A stretch of DNA of 64,000 nt from Amycolatopsis thermoflava N1165. GTDB taxonomy: Bacteria > Actinomycetota > Actinomycetes > Mycobacteriales > Pseudonocardiaceae. Below the pieces are notes generated by a model, which worked only from the letters and a program-made list of their open reading frames with translations, was not told where the DNA came from and did not search any database. Location of the stretch: contig NZ_KI421511.1 of NCBI RefSeq assembly GCF_000473265.1, positions 4,377,560-4,441,559 of the forward strand, read 5' to 3'. Made by a program: the position numbers and the translations under genes. The stretch's first letter is position 1. The number at the start of each line of letters is the position of its first letter. Below are positions 23,063-34,628 of the stretch, piece by piece.

Positions 23063-23077
23063 GGCATGCTGGGCCGC

Positions 23078-24274
23078 GTGGCCTATGACGTAACCGCAGT
23101 ACGCAAGCACTTCCCCGCGCTCGACGAGGGCACGGCGCACTTCGACGGCCCCGGCGGCTCGCAGGTGCCGGACGTGGTCGGCGAGGCCGTCGCCAGGACG
23201 CTGTGCGCCGCGATCGCCAACCGCGGCTCGGTCACCGCGGCCGAGCGTCGCGCCGACGCCATCGTCGCCGAGGCGCGCCGGGCCGCCGCCGATCTGCTCG
23301 GCGCCCAGCCCGGCGGCGTCGTGTTCGGGCGCAGCATGACCCAGCTGACCTACGACTTCTCCCGCGCGCTGGCGAAGACCTGGCAGCCCGGCGACGAGGT
23401 CGTGGTGACCCGCCTCGACCACGACGCGAACATCCGCCCGTGGGTGCAGGCGGCGGAGGCGCGCGGGGTCGCGGTGCGGTGGGCGGACTTCGACCCGGCG
23501 ACCGGTGAGCTGCCGGTCGGGGCCGTGACCGGGTTGCTGTCGGACCGCACCCGCCTGGTCGCGGTGACCGCGGCGTCCAACCTGCTCGGCACGCGCCCGG
23601 ACATCCCGGCGATCGCCGCGGCGGTGCACGAAACCCCAGCGCTGCTCTACGTGGACGGTGTGCACCTCACGCCGCACGCGCCGGTCGACGTCACGGCGCT
23701 GGGCGCGGACTTCTACGGCTGCTCGCCGTACAAGTTCCTCGGCCCGCACCTCGGTCTGGTCGCGGCCGCACCCGAGCTGCTGGAGACCCTGCACCCGGAC
23801 AAGCTGGCGCCGTCGACGAACGCCGTGCCGGAGCGGTTCGAGCTGGGCACGCTGCCGTACGAACTGCTCGCCGGCACCACCGCGGCGATCGACTTCCTCG
23901 CGGACCTGGTGCCCGGCGACGGCACCCGGCGGCAGCGGCTGCTGCGGTCGCTGACCGAGCTGGAGGAGCACGAGCAGGCCCTGCTCGACCGGCTCGACGC
24001 GGGCCTCGCGGACATCCCCGGCGTGACCCGGTACGGCTCCCCCACCCGGCGGCGCACGCCCACCGTCCTGTTCTCCGTCGAGGGCGTGCCGTCGCAGGTG
24101 GTCTACGAGCGGCTCGGCGCGCAGGGCGTGAACGCGCCCGCGGGCAGCTTCTACGCGCTGGAATGCTCCCGCCACCTGGGGCTGGGCGACACCGGAGCGG
24201 TCCGGGCCGGCATCGCGCCCTACACGACGGCCGCCGAGGTCGACCGGCTGCTCGACGGGGTCCGGAGCCTCTGA
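23078..24274 (+). CDS. Cysteine desulfurase-like protein (SufS-related, PLP enzyme)
   Basis: The 398-residue protein is a class V aminotransferase-fold PLP enzyme with VRKHFPALDEGTAHFDGPGGSQVPD at the start, TRLDHDANIRPW, LLYVDGVHLTPHAPVDV and the PLP lysine in GCSPYKFLGPHLG. This matches the cysteine-desulfurase-like subfamily that is separate from genuine SufS/IscS. GTG at 23078 fits the family's usual beginning; an ATG four codons upstream is the alternative. It follows the GlxA-like regulator. Whether it uses cysteine is not known for this subfamily. A perfect hairpin after the gene may end transcription. Confidence 0.78.
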   Translation: MAYDVTAVRKHFPALDEGTAHFDGPGGSQVPDVVGEAVARTLCAAIANRGSVTAAERRADAIVAEARRAAADLLGAQPGGVVFGRSMTQLTYDFSRALAKTWQPGDEVVVTRLDHDANIRPWVQAAEARGVAVRWADFDPATGELPVGAVTGLLSDRTRLVAVTAASNLLGTRPDIPAIAAAVHETPALLYVDGVHLTPHAPVDVTALGADFYGCSPYKFLGPHLGLVAAAPELLETLHPDKLAPSTNAVPERFELGTLPYELLAGTTAAIDFLADLVPGDGTRRQRLLRSLTELEEHEQALLDRLDAGLADIPGVTRYGSPTRRRTPTVLFSVEGVPSQVVYERLGAQGVNAPAGSFYALECSRHLGLGDTGAVRAGIAPYTTAAEVDRLLDGVRSL

Positions 24275-24387: not shown

Positions 24388-25713
24388 ATGGCCTCGTCAG
24401 TCGGTGTCGACGACTACGCCCTCACCAGAGTCCCGGACAGCGCCCGCTACTCGTGGTGGTCCGTCGCGATCCAACGATTCGGCCAGGTGTCCGCGCTGTC
24501 GCAGTTCCTGCTCGGCGCGACCGTCGGTTTCGGGATGGGCTTCTGGCAGGCGTTCCTCGCGTTCACCCTGGGCTCGGTCATCCTCGAGCTCATCACGATC
24601 CTCGTCGGCGTGATCGGCATGCGGGAAGGCCTGTCGACCTCGATGATCGCCCGCTGGACCGGCTTCGGCCGCGGCGGGTCGGCGTTGATCGGGCTCGCGA
24701 TCGGGATCAGCCTCATCGGCTGGTTCGGCATCCAGTCCGCGGTGTCGGCGCAGGGCCTCGTCTCGCTCATCGGCGGCCTGCCGGAGTGGGCGTGGGCGCT
24801 GGTGTTCGGCCTGGTCGTGACCGCGATCGTGGTGCGCGGCTTCCACTCGATGGCGTGGACGGCGTACCTGACCGTGCCCGCGTTCCTGATCCTGGTCGGC
24901 TGGTCGATCATCTCCGAGCTGTCCAGCCACGACGTCGGCGCGCTGGTGTCGTCGGCGCCGCCAGGTCCGCAGCTCAGCCTGCTGGAGGGCACGACACTCG
25001 TCGCGGGCGGGTTCATCGTCGGCGCGGTGATCACGCCGGACATGACGCGGTTCAACCGCACCACCGGGGACGTGGTCAAGCAGACCCTGGTCGGCATCAC
25101 GCTCGGCGAGTACGTGATCGGCATGGCCGGGGTGCTCCTGGCGCACGCGGTGAAGTCGGCCGAGATCACGACCATCGTCACGTCGTCGGTCGGCTGGGTC
25201 GGCCTGCTGATCGTGATCGCCGGGACCATCAAGATCAACGACTGGAACCTGTACTCGTCCGGGCTCGGCGTCGTGAACTTCATCGGCACCGTGTCCGGCC
25301 GCAAGGCCCACCGCGGCCTGATCACCGCCGTGCTCGGCATCGTCGGCAGCGTCCTCGCGGCGGCCGGGATCCTCGGGGCGTTCAGCGACTTCCTCACCGT
25401 GCTCGGCGTCGCGTTCCCGCCGATCGCCGGGATCATGGTGGCCGAGTACTTCGTGGTCAAGAAGTGGCGCGGCGAGCTGGAAACCGCGCGCGCCAAGGGA
25501 ACCGTGCCCGAGGACGCCCCGGTGTGGGTGCCTGCCACCATCGTGGTCTGGGTCGTCTCCGCGCTGATCGGCAAGTTCGTCGAGTGGGGCCTGCCCAGCA
25601 TCAACTCACTCGTCGTGGCCTTCGTGCTCTACGTGGTGGCGGGCAAGCTCGGCCTGGTGCGCGGCATCGGCCGCAGCCGCACCGCCGACGCCGACCCCGT
25701 TCCCGCCGTCTAA
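24388..25713 (+). CDS. NCS1-family (cytosine/allantoin/hydantoin-type) permease
   Basis: The 441-residue membrane protein has about twelve hydrophobic helices and the CodB-like pattern: ALSQFLLGATVGFGMGFWQAF, ITPDMTRFNRTTGDVVKQT and INDWNLYSSGLGVVN, the helix that lines the substrate site in NCS1 carriers. NCS1 members move nucleobases, allantoin or hydantoins with H+ or Na+; Mhp1 carries hydantoins. The ATG at 24388 follows AAGGAGG at ideal spacing. It heads a run of hydantoinase-type and DUF917 genes, so uptake of a hydantoin-like ring compound is a reasonable inference. Confidence 0.82.
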   Translation: MASSVGVDDYALTRVPDSARYSWWSVAIQRFGQVSALSQFLLGATVGFGMGFWQAFLAFTLGSVILELITILVGVIGMREGLSTSMIARWTGFGRGGSALIGLAIGISLIGWFGIQSAVSAQGLVSLIGGLPEWAWALVFGLVVTAIVVRGFHSMAWTAYLTVPAFLILVGWSIISELSSHDVGALVSSAPPGPQLSLLEGTTLVAGGFIVGAVITPDMTRFNRTTGDVVKQTLVGITLGEYVIGMAGVLLAHAVKSAEITTIVTSSVGWVGLLIVIAGTIKINDWNLYSSGLGVVNFIGTVSGRKAHRGLITAVLGIVGSVLAAAGILGAFSDFLTVLGVAFPPIAGIMVAEYFVVKKWRGELETARAKGTVPEDAPVWVPATIVVWVVSALIGKFVEWGLPSINSLVVAFVLYVVAGKLGLVRGIGRSRTADADPVPAV

Positions 25714-25923
25714 GGAGGAAATCCCTGGTGATCGGCTTGCATGGCGGTGCGGGTAGCGGAACCTCAGACGCCCCCTCGCTGTGGGATCGCCTCCTCATGA
25801 ACGCCAGTTCACCACGTCGGCGCTGTCCTCGCGAGGGGACGCCTGAGAACCCGCCGCGGTGCGAGCTGACTGCCCCACCGCAAGCGGCTGGCGCCGCTTA
25901 GAACCACCGAAAGGAATCTCCCA
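25714..25923. repeat. Intergenic hairpin placed after an orphan ribosome-binding site
   Basis: TAAGGAGGAAATCCCTGGTG follows the permease stop and looks like a complete start region, yet the next real gene begins about 200 bp further on. Between them, CTCAGACGCCCCCTCGC (25763-25779) pairs with 25831-25847 over 15 of 17 bases, with a further palindrome GTCC-TCGCGA-GGGGAC at 25825-25840. The segment resembles a mobile intergenic palindrome that pushed the hydantoinase gene away from its original ribosome site. Confidence 0.45.
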
Positions 25924-27474
25924 GTGCGCATCGGCATCGACGTCGGCGGCACCAACACCGACGCGGTCCTGCTGGACGGGCGGCAGGTGCTCGCCTCGAT
26001 CAAGACCAGCACCACCGAGGACGTCACCTCCGGCATCGTCGCCGCGATCAACGGCCTGCAGCAGCAGCGCGCGTTCGACCCGGCCGCGGTGCAGGCGGTG
26101 ATGATCGGCACCACGCACTTCATCAACGCCCTCGTCGAGGCGCACCGGCTCGCGCCGACCGCCGCGGTGCGGCTCAGCCTGCCCGCCGGCGCGTCGCTGC
26201 CGCCGATGGTGGACTGGCCGCAGCGGCTGGTCGACGCGGTGTCCGGGCGCAGCTACCTGGTGCACGGCGGGCACGAGTTCGACGGCCGCCACATCGCCGA
26301 GCTCGACGAGTCCGAGCTGCGCAAGGCGGCCGAGGACATGGGCGCCCACGGGGTGCGCAGTGTCGCGATCACGTCGGTCTTCTCCCCCGTGAACGCCGAG
26401 TTCGAGGCCCGCGCGGCGGAGATCATCGCCGCCCAGCTGCCGGACGTGGCGATCTCGCTGTCCCACGAGATCGGCCGCATCGGGCTGCTGGAGCGGGAGA
26501 ACGCGACCGTCATCAACGCCGCGCTGCGGGAGCTGGCCGCGCACATCGTGGACGGCCTCGCGGCGTCGGTGTCCGGCGCGGGCATCACCGCGCCGCTGTA
26601 CCTGAGCCAGAACGACGGCACGCTGATGGACGTCGACTTCGCCCGCCGCTACCCGGTGGCGACGTTCGCGTCCGGCCCGACCAACTCGATGCGCGGCGCC
26701 GCCGTGCTGTCCGGTTTGGACACCTGCGCTGTGGTCGACGTCGGCGGCACGACCAGCGACGTCGGCGTGCTGCGGCAGGGCTTCCCGCGCGAGGCGACCA
26801 CGGACGTGAGCGTCGCCGGGATCCGCACCAACTTCCGCATGCCGGACGTGCTGTCCATCGGCATCGGTGGCGGCAGCCGGGTCCGCGGCGGCGCGGGTGA
26901 CGTCACGGTCGGGCCGGACTCGGTGGGCTACGAACTGACCTCGCAGGCCCTGGTCTTCGGCGGCGACACGCTCACCGCGACCGACATCGCGGTGGCCGCG
27001 GGCCGCGCCGAGATCGGCGACCCGAGCCTGGTCGCCCACCTCGACCGCGACCTGGTGCGGGCCGCGCTGGAGAAGATCGCGGCGGACGTCTCCGACGTCG
27101 TCGAGCGGATGCGCACCTCGGCCGAGCCGCTGCCGGTGGTCGCGGTCGGCGGTGGTTCGGTGCTGCTGCCGGACGAGCTGGCCGACGCGGGCAAGGTGCA
27201 CCGGCCGGAGAACTACGCGGTCGCCAACGCGATCGGCGCGGCCATCGCGCAGATCGGCGGCGAGGTCGACCGGGTGTACGCGATCGAGCCGGGCCGCCGC
27301 GAAGCCGTCGTGGAGGAGGCGAAGCAGGAGGCCGTGGACCGCGCGATCGCCGCCGGGGCGAGCCCGGCCTCGGTCGGGATCGTCGACTTCGACGAGGTGC
27401 CCATCCCCTACCTGCCCGGCAACGCCACCCGCATCCGCGTCAAGGCCGTCGGCGACCTGCAGCTGGGAGCGTGA
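25924..27474 (+). CDS. Hydantoinase/oxoprolinase family protein (HyuA-like, no HyuB partner)
   Basis: The 516-residue protein has the ATP-site motifs of the HyuA/oxoprolinase family: GIDVGGTNTDAVLLDG at residues 3-18 and VVDVGGTTSDVGVLRQG near residue 275, with GIGGGSRVRGG and VAVGGGSVLLPDEL later. These proteins activate hydantoin-type rings using ATP and normally pair with a HyuB subunit. No HyuB gene is present; two DUF917 genes follow instead with tight coupling. The GTG start follows AAAGGAA at suitable distance. It probably acts on a cyclic ureide, lactam or thiohydantoin taken up by the NCS1 permease. Confidence 0.82.
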   Translation: MRIGIDVGGTNTDAVLLDGRQVLASIKTSTTEDVTSGIVAAINGLQQQRAFDPAAVQAVMIGTTHFINALVEAHRLAPTAAVRLSLPAGASLPPMVDWPQRLVDAVSGRSYLVHGGHEFDGRHIAELDESELRKAAEDMGAHGVRSVAITSVFSPVNAEFEARAAEIIAAQLPDVAISLSHEIGRIGLLERENATVINAALRELAAHIVDGLAASVSGAGITAPLYLSQNDGTLMDVDFARRYPVATFASGPTNSMRGAAVLSGLDTCAVVDVGGTTSDVGVLRQGFPREATTDVSVAGIRTNFRMPDVLSIGIGGGSRVRGGAGDVTVGPDSVGYELTSQALVFGGDTLTATDIAVAAGRAEIGDPSLVAHLDRDLVRAALEKIAADVSDVVERMRTSAEPLPVVAVGGGSVLLPDELADAGKVHRPENYAVANAIGAAIAQIGGEVDRVYAIEPGRREAVVEEAKQEAVDRAIAAGASPASVGIVDFDEVPIPYLPGNATRIRVKAVGDLQLGA

Positions 27475-27476
27475 CG

Positions 27477-28547
27477 ATGCGCGAGATCACGATCGACCAC
27501 CTCGACGACATCGCCCGCGGCGCCGCGATCCTCGGCACCGGCGGCGGTGGCGACCCCTACATCGGGCGCCTGCTGGCGTCCTCCGCCGTCCGCGACCACG
27601 GCCCGGTCGGGCTGGTGCCGCTGGACGAGGTCGGCGACGACGCCGTGGTCCTGCCCGTCGCGATGATGGGCGCGCCCACGGTGATGGTCGAGAAGCTGCC
27701 CTCGGCCGAGCAGGTCGGGCTGGCCGCCCGCACCCTGGCCACCTACCTGGGCAAGGAGCTGACCCACATCGCGTGCGCCGAGGCCGGTGGGGTCAACTCG
27801 CTGATCCCGGTGGTCGCGGCGGCGCAGCTGGGCCTGCCGCTGGTGGACGCCGACGGCATGGGCCGGGCGTTCCCCGAGCTGCAGATGGTGTTGCCCACGC
27901 TGTACGGCATCCGCGCGACGCCGATGTCCATCGCCGACGAGAAGGGCAATCGGGGCGTGCTGGACACCGTGGACAACCACTGGGCGGAGCGGCTGGCGCG
28001 GTCGGCGACGATCGACATGGGCTGCTCGGCGATGATCAGCAACTACGCGATGTCCGGCACGCAGGCCCGCGAATCGCTGGTGCCGGGCACCCTCAGCCTG
28101 TGTGCCGAGCTGGGCTCCGCGGTGCGGCAGGCACGGGCCGAGCACGCCGATCCCGTCGCCCGCGTGGTCGAGCGGCTGGGCGGCCGGAAGCTGTTCACCG
28201 GCAAGGTCGTCGACGTCGCCCGGCGCACCGTCACCGGCTTCGCCCGCGGTGAAGCGAAGCTGTCCGGAATGGATGGTGACGCGGGCAGCGAGATGGTGCT
28301 GAAGTTCCAGAACGAGCACCTGGTCGCCGAGCGGGACGGGGTCCCGCAGGCGTCCGTGCCGGACCTGATCTGCTGCCTCGACCGCGAATCGGGTGAAGCG
28401 GTGACCACCGAGGGCCTGCGGTACGGCCAGCGCGTCACGGTGATCGCCGCGCCCGCGGACCCGCGGTGGCACACGCCGGAGGGCATCGAGCTGGCCGGGC
28501 CGCGTTACTTCGGCTACGACATCGACCCGGTCGGGGTGCCCGCGTGA
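27477..28547 (+). CDS. DUF917 protein A
   Basis: The 356-residue protein opens with the DUF917 hallmark ILGTGGGGDPYIGRLL and carries ADGMGRAFPELQM (about residue 122), NYAMSGTQARESLVPGTLS and CLDRESGEAVTTEGLRYGQRVTVI. DUF917 (Pfam PF06032) is, as I recall, linked to S-methyl-thiohydantoin desulfuration, which would suit the hydantoinase context. The ATG at 27477 is preferred over GTG 27471 because GGGAG is then well spaced. It is coupled to the hydantoinase upstream and to a second DUF917 gene downstream. Confidence 0.8.
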   Translation: MREITIDHLDDIARGAAILGTGGGGDPYIGRLLASSAVRDHGPVGLVPLDEVGDDAVVLPVAMMGAPTVMVEKLPSAEQVGLAARTLATYLGKELTHIACAEAGGVNSLIPVVAAAQLGLPLVDADGMGRAFPELQMVLPTLYGIRATPMSIADEKGNRGVLDTVDNHWAERLARSATIDMGCSAMISNYAMSGTQARESLVPGTLSLCAELGSAVRQARAEHADPVARVVERLGGRKLFTGKVVDVARRTVTGFARGEAKLSGMDGDAGSEMVLKFQNEHLVAERDGVPQASVPDLICCLDRESGEAVTTEGLRYGQRVTVIAAPADPRWHTPEGIELAGPRYFGYDIDPVGVPA

Positions 28548-29638
28548 GCTGGACACTGACCGAGGAGCACCTGGAAGACCTCGCGCGGGGCGCGGCCGTG
28601 CTCGGCACCGGGGGCGGCGGCGACCCGTACGTGGGCAGGCTGCTGGTGCGGCAGGCCATCCGCGAACACGGGCCGATCACGGTCCTCGACCCGTCCGAGG
28701 TCGGCGACCACGACCTGGTCGTGCCGACCGCGCAGATGGGCGCGCCGACCGTCGTGCACGAGAAGCTGCCCAGCGGCGCGGAACCCGTCCTGGCGCTGCG
28801 CACGCTGGAGAAGCACCTGGGCAAGCGGGCGAGCGCGACGATGCCGATCGAGTGCGGCGGCATCAACTCGATGATCCCGCTGGTCGTCGGCGCGCGGCTG
28901 GGCCTGCCCGTGGTCGACGCGGACGGGATGGGCCGCGCGTTCCCCGAGCTGCAGATGGAGACCTTCGGCGTCTACGGCGTGCCCGGTTCGCCGATGGCGA
29001 TCGGCGGCGAGCGCGGCGAGACGACGGTGATCGACACCGGCTCGGACAACCGGCGGATGGAGTGGCTGGCGCGCGGCGTCACGATCCGGCTCGGCGGGGT
29101 CGCGCACATCGCCGAGTATGCGATGAGCGGCGCGGAGGTCAAGCGCACCGCGGTGCCGCGCACGTTGTCGCTGGCGCTGACCGTGGGCCGCACGATCCGC
29201 GAAGCGCGGGAGAACAACCTGGACCCGATCGCGGCACTGTCCGAGGCGTTGCGCGACACGCTGTACCGGAACCTGCGGGTGCTGTTCCGCGGCAAGGTGT
29301 CCGATGTGGAGCGCCGCACCGAGGCGGGGTTCGCGCGCGGGCGGGCGCAGGCGGTGTCGTTCGACGGCGAGCACAAGCTGGAGCTGCTGTTCCAGAACGA
29401 GAACCTGCTGGCACTGGTCGACGGCGAGGTGCGGTGCCTGGTGCCGGACCTGATCTGCGTGCTGGAGTCCGAGTCGGCCGAGCCGATCACGACCGAGACG
29501 CTGCGCTACGGCCAGCGGGTCGTGGTGATCGGCATCTCGACGCCGGACCTGATGCGCACACCGGAGGCACTGGCCACGTTCGGGCCGTCCGCGTTCGGGT
29601 TGTCCTACGAGTTCACGCCGGTGGAGGAGTTGGTATGA
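28544..29638 (+). CDS. DUF917 protein B
   Basis: This 364-residue paralogue of DUF917 protein A keeps the same order of motifs (VLGTGGGGDPYVGRLL, VDADGMGRAFPELQM, EYAMSGAEVKRTAVPRTLS, VLESESAEPITTETLRYGQRV). Its GTG overlaps the stop of protein A (GTGA). Adjacent non-identical paralogues suggest a heteromeric enzyme or two steps on related substrates. Nothing in the sequence tells which copy is catalytic; both retain the conserved Asp, Glu and Arg residues of the central motif. Confidence 0.8.
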   Translation: MSWTLTEEHLEDLARGAAVLGTGGGGDPYVGRLLVRQAIREHGPITVLDPSEVGDHDLVVPTAQMGAPTVVHEKLPSGAEPVLALRTLEKHLGKRASATMPIECGGINSMIPLVVGARLGLPVVDADGMGRAFPELQMETFGVYGVPGSPMAIGGERGETTVIDTGSDNRRMEWLARGVTIRLGGVAHIAEYAMSGAEVKRTAVPRTLSLALTVGRTIREARENNLDPIAALSEALRDTLYRNLRVLFRGKVSDVERRTEAGFARGRAQAVSFDGEHKLELLFQNENLLALVDGEVRCLVPDLICVLESESAEPITTETLRYGQRVVVIGISTPDLMRTPEALATFGPSAFGLSYEFTPVEELV

Positions 29639-30345
29639 GCCTGGCGGATCGGGTCGTGGTGATCATCGGCGGCGGTTCGGGCATCGGGTTCGAGGTGGCC
29701 CGCCGGGCGGCCGACGCGGGAGCGCAGGTGTTCCTGGGCGGCCGTACCGCGGCCACACTGGAGGCCGCGGCGGCGAAGATCGGCGCGCAGTGGCACGTCG
29801 TGGACAACACGGACTCCGACTCGCTGGCCGAGTTCTTCGGCGCCGTGCCGCGGGTGGACCACCTGTTCACCCCAGGCGCGTCGTACCGGACCGGGCCGAT
29901 GCGCGAGTTGTCCGACGAGGACGCGGCGAGCCCGTTCGTGACGAAGTTCTGGGGCCAGTACCACGCGGTCAAGCACGCGGCGCCGAAGCTGTCGCGCGAT
30001 GGTTCGGTGGTGCTGATGTCCGGGGCGGCGAGCGTCCGCCCGCCCGGGCCCGCGCCCGCGTACGTCGCGTGCAACGCCGCGATCGAGGGGCTCGGCCGCG
30101 GGCTGGCCGTGGAACTGGCACCGGTGCGGGTCAACGTCGTCGCGCCCGGCACGATCGACGGGAACCTGTGGTCGCAGCGGCCGGCGGACGTCCGCGAGGC
30201 GAGCTTCGCGCAGTACCGCTCGGACACGGTGCTGCACCGCGTCGGCACCGAGTCCGAAGTGGCCGACGCGGTGCTCTACCTGTTCGGCGCCACCTTCACG
30301 ACGGGCTCGACGCTCTACCCGGACGGCGGCTACGCGTTCCGGTAG
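29635..30345 (+). CDS. SDR-fold protein with Asn in place of the catalytic Lys
   Basis: The 236-residue protein has the SDR cofactor motif GGGSGIGFEVARRAADAG near residue 12 and the family ending with TTGSTLYPDGGYAF. In the active site, SGAAS and the Tyr of PAYVACNAAIEGL are present, but the position four after Tyr is Asn (AAC) where classical SDRs have Lys. Loss of that Lys usually weakens proton transfer, though an SDR subgroup carries Asn here. Its ATG overlaps the stop of DUF917 protein B, so it belongs to the same operon. It may oxidise or bind an intermediate with altered chemistry. Confidence 0.75.
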   Translation: MSLADRVVVIIGGGSGIGFEVARRAADAGAQVFLGGRTAATLEAAAAKIGAQWHVVDNTDSDSLAEFFGAVPRVDHLFTPGASYRTGPMRELSDEDAASPFVTKFWGQYHAVKHAAPKLSRDGSVVLMSGAASVRPPGPAPAYVACNAAIEGLGRGLAVELAPVRVNVVAPGTIDGNLWSQRPADVREASFAQYRSDTVLHRVGTESEVADAVLYLFGATFTTGSTLYPDGGYAFR

Positions 30346-30394
30346 GGCCGTTGGTCGGGTGTTTTTCAGCCGTCCGTGAGGTTGACTCTCCCGG

Positions 30395-31258
30395 ATGAGA
30401 GCAGCACTCGCATCGGCCGCCGCCGTCGCCGCGATCCTGGTGACGGCGGCCCCGGCCTCGGCCATCAACTCCTACAACGCGACCCCGGCGCCTGAGCGCA
30501 CCGAGGTCGGCGCGCTCGTCGCGACCTGGGACAACGACGCGAACCCAGCCACGCCGGACCGGGTGGACTGGGTGTGCTCGGGCACCATGGTCGACCGCGA
30601 CACCTTCCTCACCGCGGCGCACTGCACCAGCGACTGGCCCGCCGGCGTGCGGTTCTACGTGTCGCTCGACCAGGACGTGCAGTCCGGCCTCGACGCCGCC
30701 GCCCAGCAGCACCCGGGCGATCCCGCCGCGGTGGCACGGGCGGTCGCGGTGGAAGGCGTGGCGCACTCCGACCCGTCCTACCCGGGCAACTCGGCGGACG
30801 CGCACGACATCGCGGTCATCCAGCTGCCCGCGCAGCAGGTCGCCGCACGGTGGTCGTTCACCCCCGCGCAGTTGCCCACCGCCGGGCAGCTGGACCAGCT
30901 CGGTCCGCGCGGCCTGAACGGCACGCCGTTCGTGGTCGCCGGCTACGGGACGCAGGAGGCGGTCAACGGCCCCGGCGGGCAGACCCACCCGGGCGGCGGG
31001 GTCCGGATGAAGGCGCCGGTCACCTTCGACGCGCTCAACAAGACGTGGGTGCGCCTGGCGATGACCGCGCCACAGGGCAACGGCGGCGCCTGCTACGGCG
31101 ACTCGGGCGGGCCGAACTTCGCCACGATCGGCGGCACCCGGACGCTGGTGTCCACGACGATCACCGGTGACGCGCCCTGCTACGCCACCAACGTGACCTA
31201 CCGCCTGGACACCCCGTCCGCGCGCACGTTCCTGGCGCCGTTCACCGCGCTGCCGTAG
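30395..31258 (+). CDS. Secreted trypsin-like (S1) serine protease
   Basis: The 287-residue protein starts with a signal peptide (about 1-23, ending ASA). The catalytic triad is visible: His in [11 protein letters not shown], Asp in AHDIAVIQL and Ser in [11 protein letters not shown]. Four cysteines can form the usual disulphides around His and Ser. There is no recognisable pro-domain beyond a short spacer. It lies between the DUF917 operon and the convergent DUF1445 gene, overlapping the latter's 3' end by 17 bp. It has no evident link to the neighbouring pathway. Confidence 0.85.
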
Positions 31259-32048
31259 GCACGCGGTACTCGCTGTCCCTGCGGTCGGTGATGAACATGT
31301 GCCCAGGCGAGTGGGTGATCGCGAACGGCGGCTTCGACGCCATCAGCGCCGCCTGCGGGGTGACCCCGCACGCCCAGAACACCGGCACGTCACCGGGTTC
31401 CGCCTCGACCGGGTCACCGAAGTCGGGGCGGGCCAGGTCGGCGATCCCGAGCCCGGCGGGGTCGCCGACGTGCACCGGCGCGCCGTGCACCGCGGGCATC
31501 GCGCCGCTGATCGCGATCGCCTCGTCGACCCGGCCCGCCGGGATCGGGCGCATCGACACGACCATCGGTCCGTGCAGCCGCCCGGCCGGCCGGCACTCGC
31601 GGTTCGTCACGTACATCGACACGTTGCGGCCCTGCTCCAGGTGCCGCAGCGGGATCCCGGCGGCGAGCAGCCCGGTCTCGAACGTGAAGCTGCAGCCGAT
31701 CGAAAACGCGACCAGGTTCTCCTGCCACAGCCCGCTGACGTCGTCGACCTCCTCGGCCAGCTCGCCGTGCCGCCACACGCGGTACCGCGGCAGGTCGCGG
31801 CTCAGGTCGGCGCCGGGGGCGAGCGTGGTCGCGGTGCTGCCCGGGTCGGTGACGTCGAGGACCGGACACGGCTGCGGGTTGCGCTGGCAGAACAGCAGCA
31901 CGTCGTAGGCCCAGTCGCGTGGCACCGCGATCAGGTTGGTCTGCGTGAAACCGGTCGCCCACCCCGACGTCGGCGCCACGGTTCCGGCGCGGAACGCCGC
32001 CCGCGCCTGTTCCGGGGTCATGGTGGCTGGATCGTCTACCCTGGTCAT
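31242..32048 (-). CDS. DUF1445 protein (putative hydro-lyase / D-glutamate cyclase family)
   Basis: The 268-residue protein carries the family signatures [74 protein letters not shown] and [13 protein letters not shown], cited here only as landmarks. Bacterial members are named putative hydro-lyases, and a mammalian homologue cyclises D-glutamate to 5-oxo-D-proline. A five-ring lactam chemistry would suit the hydantoinase/DUF917 neighbourhood. Its start at 32048 is only 28 bp from the divergent DUF917 gene; GGAGGT abuts the ATG, so an internal ATG at 32021 is an alternative start. Confidence 0.8.
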
Positions 32049-32076
32049 ACCTCCAGCTCAGCACATGAAGGCAAGC

Positions 32077-33138
32077 ATGCGCATCACCGTGGCGGACGTG
32101 CCCGCGCTCGAACGGGGCGTCGCGCTGCTCGGGTCGGGCGGTGGCGGCGACACGATGACGGCCGCGGCGCTCCTGCGCCAGCACGTCACCCACGGGCGTG
32201 AACCCGACATCTCCGGCGCGCTGGATCCGAACACGCTGGTGATGCCGGTCGGGATCGTCGGCGCGACCGCCGCCTTCACCGAGAAACTGCCCAGCGGCGC
32301 GGAGTTCGCGACCGCGGTGTCGGCGATCGAGCGCTGGACCGGCGCCCGGGCCGGCGCGCTGGTGTCGATCGAGATCGGCGGGCTCAACGGGCTGATGCCG
32401 CTGGTCGCCGCCGTCGAGCTGGGCCTGCCGTGCGCCGACGCCGACCTGTCCGGCCGCGGGCTGCCGCGGCTGGACCAGCTCTCCATCGCCGCGACCGGCC
32501 GCGGGCTGGCCCCTGCCGCGCTCGCCGAGCCGGGCGGTCAGGTGCTGGTGCTGGCGGCCGGTTCGGACGAGTCGGTCGAACGCGGCGCCCGCGCGTTCCT
32601 GGCCAGCTCCGGCGGGTGGGCGGCGATGGCGTTCGCCCCGGTGCCCGCGGGTGAACTGCCGCGGTGCGCGGTGATGGGCAGCGTCACCGGCGCGCTGGAA
32701 CTGGGCAGTCGGGTGCTCGCAGCCGGGGAGGGCCCGGAGCCGGACCGGCTCGCCGAGGCCTCCGGCGGGCGGGTGCTCGCGATGGGCCGCGTGCTCGAGG
32801 TGTCCCGGCACCCCGGTCCCGGGGCGCACGGCCGCGCCGGGTTCGGCCGCGGCAGCGCGACGCTGACCGACCACCGCACCGGGGCGCTGCTCCGGCTGGA
32901 GATGGAGAACGAGTACCTGCTGGCGCTGCGGGACGGCCATCCGGTGGCATCCACGCCGGACGTGCTGGCCGTGGTCGACCACCGCACCGGCGTTCCGGTG
33001 CCCTGCGACGGGATCCGCGCCGGGATCGAGGTCGACGTGCTGCAGCTCGCCGCGGCGCCGTTCTGGACCGATCCGCGACGGCTGCCGGTGCTGCAGCCGC
33101 GCGCGTACGGCATCGACTCGGATCCGGTGCTCGCATGA
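32077..33138 (+). CDS. DUF917 protein C (divergent paralogue)
   Basis: This 353-residue protein is a third DUF917 member (LLGSGGGGDTMTAAALL at the start, ENEYLLALRDG and VVDHRTGVPVPCDGIRAGIEV near the end) but is clearly diverged from A and B. The central DGMGRAFPE motif is replaced by DLSGRGLPR, removing the Met, Phe and Glu, and the NYAMSG/EYAMSG segment reads GGWAAMAF. The ATG at 32077 has AAGG upstream; ATG 32065 is possible. It is coupled to the PucR regulator by an ATGA overlap and is divergent from the DUF1445 gene. Confidence 0.78.
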   Translation: MRITVADVPALERGVALLGSGGGGDTMTAAALLRQHVTHGREPDISGALDPNTLVMPVGIVGATAAFTEKLPSGAEFATAVSAIERWTGARAGALVSIEIGGLNGLMPLVAAVELGLPCADADLSGRGLPRLDQLSIAATGRGLAPAALAEPGGQVLVLAAGSDESVERGARAFLASSGGWAAMAFAPVPAGELPRCAVMGSVTGALELGSRVLAAGEGPEPDRLAEASGGRVLAMGRVLEVSRHPGPGAHGRAGFGRGSATLTDHRTGALLRLEMENEYLLALRDGHPVASTPDVLAVVDHRTGVPVPCDGIRAGIEVDVLQLAAAPFWTDPRRLPVLQPRAYGIDSDPVLA

Positions 33139-34628
33139 TCCTGCGCCGCCTGCTGGCCCTCCCGTCGTGGGCCGGCGTCCGCGTCGCCGCGGGCGAATCC
33201 GGGTTGGACCGTCCACTGGAGACGGTGCGCGCCACCCTCGACGCCGGGGACAGCCCCGGCCCGGGCGAGCTGCTGGTGCTGGCCCGGGAACTGCGCGGCA
33301 CGGACTGGCAGATCGACGCCCTGCTGCGGCGCGGGGCGGACAGCGGCGCGGCGGGCCTGCTCCTTCCGCAGGTCGAACCGCTGACCGCGACCAGGCTGCT
33401 GGCCGACCGGCTCGCGATGCCGCTGCTGGTGACGGCGGCCCGGCCGCTGGACCTGCTCGTCGACGCCCGCCTGATGCTCGCCGCGCCGGAACTGGACCGG
33501 GCGAACCTCGTGCTGGCGACGCACCGGGCGCTCGGCGAACGGCTGCGCTCGCCGGAGGAGGTGGTCACCGCGCTGCGCGGGTTGCTGCGGTCGCCGGTCG
33601 CGTTGCTGGACGACCGGGGTGAGCCGGTGGCCGGGGAACTGGCGTCGGCGGGGCGGATCCGGGTCGGCGAGCCGGTGCCACAGCGGGTGGACCTCGACGA
33701 CGGCGTGCTGCTGGCGCACCCCGCGCTGCTGGCCGGGCCGGTGCTGTGGGTGGCGGCCGAGCTGACCGGCGCGGAGGCGGCGCGGGCGGACGTGGTGCCG
33801 CCGGCGCTGGCGGTCGCGGCCGGCGCGGTGCAGCGGTGGCTGCTGGCGAACCGGCTGGAGCTGGAACGGGACGCCCGGTCGCGCACCGCGCTGCTCGGCG
33901 ACCTGCTGCGGCTGGACGCCGAGCCGGGCGCGGACCTGCGTCGGCGGGCGGCCGACGCCGGGTGGCGGCTGGGCGGCTGGCACGTCGGGCTGCGCATCGG
34001 CGTCGCGTCCAGTGTGGACACCGTGGCGCGGACGACCGAGGTGGTGCGCGCGCTGCGGGCCGAGCAGATCGCCGCGGTGGTCGTCGAGCACGGCGACGGC
34101 TGGACCGGGTGGGTGACCTTCGACCAGGAGCCGACGGCCGAGCGCGTCCGCACGCTGGCCGCCGGGCTGCGGGCGGCGCACAAGGCGCTGCGGCGGACGC
34201 TCGGCGCGCATCTCGGGGTCGGCCGCCCGCACCCGCGCCCGGACGGCCTCGCCGCGACGATCGCCGAGGCCACCGACGCCGCGCGCCTGGCCGCGACCCG
34301 GCCGGAGTCGGGGCACTTCCTGCACGTCGACCAGCTGGGGATGGCACAGCTGCTGCTGGAGTGGACGCGGACGGACACCTTCGAACCGGCGGCCCGCGCG
34401 CTGGTCGCCCCGCTGCGCAACGCGCCCGGTGACCTGGTGCGCACGCTGGCCGTGTACCTGGACGCCGAGTCGTCGATCGCCGAGACAGCGGCGGTGCTCG
34501 GCGTGCACCGCAACACGGTCACCGCGCGCGTCGCCCGGATCGAGCAGCTGCTGGGGGTGGACCTGTCCCGCCCGGACGACCGGCTGGCCCTGCACCTCGC
34601 TTCCCGGGCCATCACCCTGGCCGACTGA
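33135..34628 (+). CDS. PucR-family transcriptional regulator
   Basis: The 497-residue regulator ends with the PucR-type HTH (LRTLAVYLDAESSIAETAAVLGVHRNTVTARVARIEQLLG, about residues 435-475), preceded by a GGDEF-like/CdaR middle region and an N-terminal purine-catabolism-regulator-like sensor. PucR/CdaR regulators control uptake and use of purines, ureides and sugar acids. It is translationally coupled to DUF917 protein C and is the only regulator inside the hydantoinase/DUF917 region, so it is the likely controller of that cluster. Confidence 0.82.
   Translation: MILRRLLALPSWAGVRVAAGESGLDRPLETVRATLDAGDSPGPGELLVLARELRGTDWQIDALLRRGADSGAAGLLLPQVEPLTATRLLADRLAMPLLVTAARPLDLLVDARLMLAAPELDRANLVLATHRALGERLRSPEEVVTALRGLLRSPVALLDDRGEPVAGELASAGRIRVGEPVPQRVDLDDGVLLAHPALLAGPVLWVAAELTGAEAARADVVPPALAVAAGAVQRWLLANRLELERDARSRTALLGDLLRLDAEPGADLRRRAADAGWRLGGWHVGLRIGVASSVDTVARTTEVVRALRAEQIAAVVVEHGDGWTGWVTFDQEPTAERVRTLAAGLRAAHKALRRTLGAHLGVGRPHPRPDGLAATIAEATDAARLAATRPESGHFLHVDQLGMAQLLLEWTRTDTFEPAARALVAPLRNAPGDLVRTLAVYLDAESSIAETAAVLGVHRNTVTARVARIEQLLGVDLSRPDDRLALHLASRAITLAD

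Follow-up and report, generated by a model that had tools for sequence, protein, structure and literature searches.

A short HyuA-like ATPase paired with DUF917 proteins: a candidate import-and-open module for small cyclic amides in Amycolatopsis thermoflava

A nine-gene locus

The subject of this article is a group of nine genes in the 8.69 Mb genome of Amycolatopsis thermoflava N1165 that combines a HyuA-like ATPase of unusual shortness with three proteins of the DUF917 family. The genes, recognized from open reading frames (ORFs) and Pfam matches, lie at positions 24388-34628 of a 64,000-nucleotide stretch of contig NZ_KI421511.1, which is referred to here as the window and supplies all coordinates. 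A preliminary description of this DNA had seen in it a candidate (thio)hydantoin pathway; its list of genes was right and its coordinates agree with those given here, the sole omission being a trypsin-like gene. The genes are the following.

24388..25713, + strand: NCS1 permease, cytosine-permease (CodB)-like (PF02133, 89.1 bits); proposed importer of a cyclic substrate
25924..27474, + strand: short HyuA-like ASKHA ATPase, 516 amino acids (Hydant_A_N, PF05378, 128.7 bits; Hydantoinase_A, PF01968, 121.8 bits); proposed carbonyl-activating kinase subunit
27471..28547, + strand: DUF917 A (S-Me-THD_N and S-Me-THD_C); proposed hydrolytic subunit
28544..29638, + strand: DUF917 B (S-Me-THD_N and S-Me-THD_C), a paralogue 51% identical to A; may partner the hydrolytic subunit or give it a second specificity
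29635..30345, + strand: SDR oxidoreductase (PF13561; NF005449 at 209.7 bits, under its cut-off of 257); lineage-specific accessory
30395..31258, + strand: trypsin-like protease (PF00089), judged to lie outside the module
31242..32048, - strand: DUF1445/D-glutamate cyclase family protein (D-Glu_cyclase, PF07286, 226.6 bits; NCBIfam NF003969, 416 bits, cut-off 324), antisense; genus-level addition
32077..33138, + strand: DUF917 C (S-Me-THD_N and S-Me-THD_C), the third and diverged paralogue, in which the conserved acids are retained
33135..34628, + strand: PucR-type regulator (HTH_30; PF13556 and PF17853 over cut-off, the PucR domain PF07905 under its cut-off)

The permease gene starts at 24388 and is preceded by a ribosome-binding sequence (GGAGG). 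Overlaps of four bases join HyuA to DUF917 A (GTGA), A to B (GTGA), B to the SDR gene (ATGA) and DUF917 C to PucR (ATGA), which points to translational coupling. Two coupled DUF917 genes and a diverged third had been described here, and that is what the A/B overlap and the divergence of C amount to. All three proteins score over cut-off for both PF06032 and PF20906, and they are the only DUF917 matches in the genome. The permease had been assigned to the hydantoin/allantoin transporter family: its membership in NCS1 stands, but the closest solved structure is a cytosine permease (7qoa, E 4e-25) rather than Mhp1 (2jln, E 2e-4).

The HyuA-DUF917 pair

The core of the module is the pair of short HyuA and DUF917. 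For the comparison across phyla, a HyuA alignment served as bait among named genomes, and the best 80 of at least 580 confirmed looser relatives were kept; the presence of DUF917 was checked in these 80 only. DUF917 lies no more than 8 kb from HyuA in 79 of the 80 loci, and the sole exception (L092) is a short stretch with just 3.1 kb upstream and 8.6 kb downstream. The set includes Actinomycetota, Chloroflexota, Alphaproteobacteria and archaeal records; the pair is found on a Haloferax plasmid, too. Within the same 8 kb, NCS1 permeases are present in 46 loci and PucR in 41, SDR genes in three (all Amycolatopsis), and DUF1445 (L081, Amycolatopsis) and trypsin-like genes in one each.

These loci were selected by similarity of HyuA, and the DUF917 side was therefore examined separately. 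In a phylum sample of 296 genomes, that of A. thermoflava included, short HyuA (E <= 1e-40) is found in 16 genomes, DUF917 (by PF06032) in 17, and both in 15 (Fisher p about 3e-22, with the relatedness of the genomes ignored). Three genomes have only one of the two: HyuA in G149, where it lies at the end of a contig 3.6 kb long, and DUF917 in G257 and G285. Plasmids add to this: 121 records carry this HyuA, and among the 23 annotated regions that were opened, picked for variety, DUF917 adjoins HyuA in 22 (one of these DUF917s is annotated as 'hypothetical protein' and was identified by BLAST) and is separated from it by one small gene in the other. The association of DUF917 with HyuA that the preliminary description had drawn from this one locus thus held when neighbourhoods were searched for co-occurrence; homologous clusters lacking it, which had been named as the finding that would speak against it, were looked for and the link was not refuted. 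Where a second, diverged HyuA occurs in an operon that already holds a normal pair (L083, L086, L088, L137), it adjoins a second DUF917.

Minimal versions, consisting of permease, DUF917 and HyuA and in some cases PucR, are found on plasmids of Lactiplantibacillus, Limosilactobacillus, Pediococcus, Sodalis and Arsenophonus, which suggests that the module can do without any dedicated extra enzyme beside it. These small plasmid modules are L138, L140, L141, L143, L154 and L155 (from lactobacilli, Pediococcus, Sodalis and Arsenophonus), and some of them flank transposases. Annotated records name the pair merely as 'hydantoinase/oxoprolinase family' and 'DUF917'. Fusions of NCS1 with HyuA and of DUF917 A with B, which appeared in the first ORF calls, were rejected as overlapping open frames, and as frame changes in L049; in this locus, from Curtobacterium flaccumfaciens, the HyuA-DUF917 operon has several frame changes that are probably sequencing errors.

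A short HyuA without HyuB

HyuA proteins ordinarily considered as ATP-dependent lactamase or hydantoinase subunits (those of caprolactamase CapAB, 5-oxoprolinase and N-methylhydantoinase) resemble the window protein in being ASKHA-type HyuAs with conserved phosphate-binding residues, and N-methylhydantoinase (7hk5) and CapA (6yra) are its solved relatives. The locus differs from these systems in the length of its HyuA (516 residues against about 700), in having no HyuB nearby, and in having DUF917 in the position of the partner. The two solved relatives align with the window protein only to about its residue 397; in CapA (696 residues), residues 495-696 make up C-terminal alpha+beta and barrel domains (PMC8453981). 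In the HyuA tree the short proteins and the diverged copies (36 and 8 sequences) form one group with a support of 0.88, apart from 16 long HyuAs. Scores against the window HyuA run in parallel: at least 398 bits in the short group, 123-297 for most diverged copies, and 64-114 for the long proteins.

HyuB (PF02538) is absent from the nine genes of the locus, and all six places in the genome that match it lie elsewhere. The genome holds seven other HyuAs, all of them long, and each of the six HyuBs adjoins one of these, so the window HyuA was rightly called an orphan. (One long HyuA, L010 at C1:1366583-1367500, has no HyuB match nearby and differs in this from the other six.) Classical, amidohydrolase-type hydantoinase had also been reported missing, and Pfam finds none among the nine genes, to which the search was confined. 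In relatives, classic HyuA-HyuB pairs occur near the short HyuA and DUF917 in L123, L134, L136 and L157, which suggests two ring-opening steps or two substrates in these organisms.

The two phosphate sites, DxGGTxTD and DxGGT, are kept: T10, D13, D272, G275 and T276 are present in 31 of 31 sequences and D6 in 30, with a gap in the remaining one. In CapA, mutation of D11 and D295, the counterparts of the ATP-site aspartates of the window HyuA, strongly cut product formation, and changes of the metal ligands of CapB abolished it; what the authors of that work consider is phosphorylation or carboxylation of a lactim in CapA, followed by hydrolysis in CapB (PMC8453981, for all of these statements).

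DUF917 and the desulfurases

DUF917 holds two curated families of desulfurases (NF058532 and NF058529, the family names here and below being those of NCBIfam), distant kin of all three window proteins, and the preliminary description had connected the locus with thiohydantoin breakdown. Against the model of the S-methyl-thiohydantoin desulfurase (NF058532, cut-off 450 bits), DUF917 A, B and C score 111.7, 85.4 and 68.3 bits, respectively; a genuine desulfurase, encoded on plasmid pAt of Agrobacterium tumefaciens (L158), scores 555.1. The pAt cluster also encodes an S-methyl-thiourocanate hydratase (975.8 bits, cut-off 880) and the N-carbamyl-glutamate amidohydrolase ErtE (576.1 bits, cut-off 520), and no HyuA is present in the 15 kb shown (that is, within 7 kb of the desulfurase). 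No protein of the A. thermoflava genome scores over the cut-off for the hydratase, the best match reaching 695.3 of the 880 bits.

The desulfurase of the S-methyl-ergothioneine pathway and the HyuA-linked DUF917 proteins have PF06032 and PF20906 in common, and with them D126, R132, R177 and E282. They differ at four other positions. In 175 HyuA-linked DUF917s (A, B and other groups, the C group being set apart) E74, E104, D128 and E173 each have a rounded frequency of 1.00; the pAt protein, the one genuine desulfurase sequence compared, has L, H, A and S there. The window's A, B and C all have E, E, D and E at these positions. DUF917 B belongs to a clade of 31 sequences (support 0.79) and has the conserved acids as in A; in C, E69, E99, D121, D123, R127, E168, R172 and E279 occupy the A/B columns, while the C group resolves into no clade under midpoint rooting. 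With scores far under the cut-off, the residues of the desulfurase absent and no hydratase over cut-off in the genome, the thiohydantoin link is not supported at this locus, and HyuA-linked DUF917 proteins should not be given the name of thiohydantoin desulfurase. The predicted structure of DUF917 A (the only one of the three that was modelled) shows the fold of 2o3i; that structural-genomics entry, CV_3147 of Chromobacterium violaceum, is 27% identical to it and is named hypothetical protein.

Variation within Amycolatopsis

Thirteen Amycolatopsis loci were compared (the window, L160-L169, L035 and L036; the twelfth genome with short HyuA, G308 at 47% identity, was left out; L160 probably duplicates L081, an Amycolatopsis tucumanensis contig whose HyuA is 99.6% identical to that of the window). 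NCS1, HyuA, DUF917 A, B and C, and PucR are present in all 13; the accessory genes are more variable (SDR in 10, DUF1445 in eight, the trypsin-like gene in five). DUF1445, which had been counted as a part of the pathway, was dropped as a core member: its presence in eight of these 13 loci and in a single one of the 80 cross-phylum loci marks it as a genus-level addition outside the core. DUF1445 and the trypsin-like gene are additions within Amycolatopsis, and DUF1445 may have a genus-specific role.

The correspondence is less tight within the genus: in a set of 19 Amycolatopsis genomes, 12 have short HyuA (E <= 1e-60) and 15 have DUF917 (E <= 1e-20). Distant DUF917 copies, 28-37% identical to A, occur outside the HyuA locus, or where short HyuA is missing from the genome, in G298, G299, G300, G302, G304, G307, G308, G309 and G310; of these, G300, G302 and G309 (three of the 15 DUF917-positive genomes) are the ones with no match to short HyuA. 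Directly upstream of the permease gene in the window (23066-24274) lies a gene for a cysteine-desulfurase-like protein (TIGR01976, 486.6 bits, over cut-off).

Neighbourhoods of the relatives

What surrounds the pair elsewhere offers hints about the substrate; the neighbour counts that follow are raw, with no background control. Several neighbours point to cyclic dipeptides. In an operon from Chloroflexi (L074), DUF917 A and B are directly followed by a fused cyclodipeptide oxidase (CDO; PF00881 and PF19585, the latter being the CDOB family, PMC11055893), and a split one stands beside DUF917, HyuA, NCS1 and a racemase in Archaeoglobus (L109; 33% identity over 170 and 42% over 88 residues by BLAST to L074). 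Oligopeptide-type binding proteins occur in 11 of 81 neighbourhoods and DppB-like permeases in 15; an M19 dipeptidase is present in L067, an M20 aminoacylase together with AroM, a racemase and an OPT transporter in L142, and an isoaspartyl peptidase with a dipeptidase in L150. DUF917, PF01177 racemases, AroM, peptide importers and peptidases are also reported to be enriched in oxidase-containing clusters without cyclodipeptide synthase (CDPS), a likeness to some of the HyuA-DUF917 relatives; the section of that paper on these clusters makes no mention of HyuA (PMC11055893), and the window locus differs in having no such oxidase, racemase or dipeptidase. The neighbours found elsewhere suggest that cyclic dipeptides would suit the pair as well as hydantoins.

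Hydantoins or other ureides have hints of their own: the NCS1 permease (closer though it is to cytosine permease than to Mhp1), the PF01177 racemases of seven of the 81 neighbourhoods, and five carbon-nitrogen hydrolase genes that form one cluster of sequences and belong to HyuA operons, possibly of Coriobacteriia. The NCBIfam models nearest to these hydrolases are a nitrilase and N-carbamoylputrescine amidase, and the scores for both fall far short of the cut-off. A nitroreductase (cluster c13) in five of the 81 neighbourhoods, from Alphaproteobacteria, was not counted as a fused cyclodipeptide oxidase: its representative in L099, the only one scanned, has PF00881 without PF19585. A subtype of the pair in L079, L085 and L087 is accompanied by genes clustering with molybdenum hydroxylase subunits and by genes for an M24 peptidase, a threonine-synthase-like protein and an SDR. 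Gene order and lengths around HyuA are identical in L085 (titled Acidimicrobiales) and L087 (Candidatus Poseidoniales, an archaeon), and one of these two metagenome assemblies is probably misassigned.

What the module may do

With moderate confidence, we take the locus to encode a module for the uptake and opening of a small cyclic amide, in which HyuA activates the substrate and DUF917 replaces HyuB. The NCS1 permease would import the ring. The short HyuA would spend ATP on phosphorylating a ring carbonyl to a lactim phosphate, a reaction that others have suggested for the HyuA-type subunits in caprolactamase and in 5-oxoprolinase, and DUF917 A together with B, standing in HyuB's place, would hydrolyse the activated carbon so that the ring opens. 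DUF917 C may be a further specificity subunit, and PucR would sense the substrate or the product and control expression. The pairing of HyuA with DUF917, the lack of a HyuB nearby, the retained ATP-site residues and the residue pattern that sets these DUF917s apart from a known desulfurase are observations; that HyuA and DUF917 form a complex, that phosphorylation takes place, which ring is opened and what A, B, C and PucR each do are what we infer. The desulfurases could be accommodated in the same logic: their target ring carbon already bears an S-methyl leaving group, which on this proposal is why they need no ATPase, and HyuA would have to install a phosphate first. The neighbourhoods suggest 5-substituted hydantoins or cyclic dipeptides as the likeliest substrates. 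That a five-membered ring is imported and opened, as had been supposed, is plausible as far as import and opening go; the ring may have five members or six. A poorly described system for importing and opening a small ring, with neither HyuB nor a classical hydantoinase among its nine genes, is likewise a plausible account of the locus.

A number of observations weigh against this interpretation. DUF917 is found without short HyuA in two of the 17 DUF917 genomes of the phylum sample and in three of the 15 of the genus. Nor do the residues mark the linked proteins cleanly: E104 is present in 28 of 33 members of the C group, D74 and A104 occur in one HyuA-linked DUF917 (that of L157), and in Sulfitobacter (L156) a DUF917 that scores under both desulfurase cut-offs, with no HyuA gene within the 15 kb shown, keeps E104, D128 and E173 and has D at 74. 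The pattern thus separates these proteins from one genuine desulfurase and does not, by itself, predict linkage to HyuA. The boundary of the HyuA family is also soft, since the plasmid HyuA beside DUF917 in L157 is so strongly diverged (82.6 bits) as to fall within the range of the long proteins. HyuB does not figure among the listed fold matches of DUF917 A (which does not exclude a relation), so that the HyuB-equivalent role is argued from gene order alone. As for the substrate, the hints come from relatives, most of which carry other importers, and the window operon has no racemase, carbamoylase or oxidase of these kinds and, as its only peptidase, the trypsin-like gene. Finally, the two DUF917s of one Streptomycetaceae operon enclose OsmC and a gene resembling cysteine desulfhydrase (572.1 bits against a cut-off of 600), which would fit a sulfur substrate.

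This last operon, and the two curated desulfurase families within DUF917, are what can be said for a thiohydantoin pathway in which the DUF917s would act as ergothioneine-type desulfurases feeding the breakdown of hydantoin-propionate. Such a pathway is very improbable here, given scores of 68-112 bits against a cut-off of 450, the four positions, conserved among the HyuA-linked proteins, where the desulfurase (one sequence) differs, the lack of HyuA in the stretch shown around the genuine desulfurase, and a best hydratase match of 695.3 against 880. A more serious rival, which we nevertheless regard as unlikely, is that DUF917 is itself an ATP-independent, hydantoinase-like hydrolase, with HyuA serving a separate step or regulation. 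It could call on a 2024 paper that suggests, by comparison of sequences and structures, that DUF917 proteins are hydantoinases, HyuA being unnamed in the section concerned (PMC11055893), on the desulfurase-type DUF917 with no HyuA nearby, and on those same genomes of the phylum sample and the genus that have DUF917 and no short HyuA. It would not readily explain why both genes are kept in 79 of 80 loci (found, it is true, by way of HyuA), why 15 of the 17 DUF917 genomes of the phylum sample also have short HyuA, or why a second, diverged HyuA comes with an adjoining second DUF917.

Salvage of a nucleobase or ureide (a dihydropyrimidine, cytosine-like or allantoin-like ring), unrelated to peptides, seems to us improbable, if less so than the thiohydantoin pathway. 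The resemblance of the permease to cytosine permease, the presence of PucR in 41 of the 80 loci, a gene resembling allantoinase PuuE that lies near the pair in L094 (365.9 bits, cut-off 424.6) and the neighbours assigned by cluster membership to molybdenum hydroxylases in L079, L085 and L087 all lean that way; other relatives carry oligopeptide-type importers in place of NCS1, and the cyclodipeptide-oxidase-like gene pair of L109 stands beside a module that is of the NCS1 type, both of which lean the other way.

Significance

The component families of the locus are already annotated. What we rate as new is the pair of short HyuA and DUF917 as a variant of the ATP-dependent lactamase kind; as far as titles, the starts of abstracts and passages show, the open-access literature has no description of this pair as an enzyme. 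The suggestion that DUF917 proteins open hydantoin-like rings already dates from 2024 (PMC11055893). In the parts seen of other papers, a Clostridioides trio of permease, DUF917 and hydantoinase appears in a table whose values for the three (1.69, 1.18 and 1.18) agree in sign (PMC12915319), and such genes are merely listed in two more (PMC7513527, PMC9503626).

The pair is widespread: the best 80 of at least 580 candidates and the 121 plasmid records extend to lactobacilli, rhizobia, a haloarchaeon and insect symbionts. There is also an old gap to which it may be relevant. Cyclic dipeptides resisted the peptidases tested, according to one paper, and the degraders reported there belong to Paenibacillus, Streptomyces, Leifsonia, Bacillus, Rhizobium and Microbacterium; three of the strains (Leifsonia, Bacillus and Rhizobium) hydrolyse hydantoins and dihydropyrimidines as well (PMC3852281). 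Leifsonia, Microbacterium, Rhizobium and Streptomyces are represented in the 80-locus set, by strains other than the reported degraders.

If our interpretation of the locus as an import-and-open module is true, the pair would represent a second way of building an ATP-driven ring-opening enzyme, and the gap in cyclic-dipeptide degradation would have a concrete candidate. In its widest form, which we put forward tentatively and think possible though doubtful, HyuA and DUF917 would constitute a second, independent ATP-dependent cyclic-amide hydrolase, with an unrelated protein in place of HyuB, that would in many bacteria be the missing opener of cyclic dipeptides, and of which the desulfurases would represent an ATPase-free branch.

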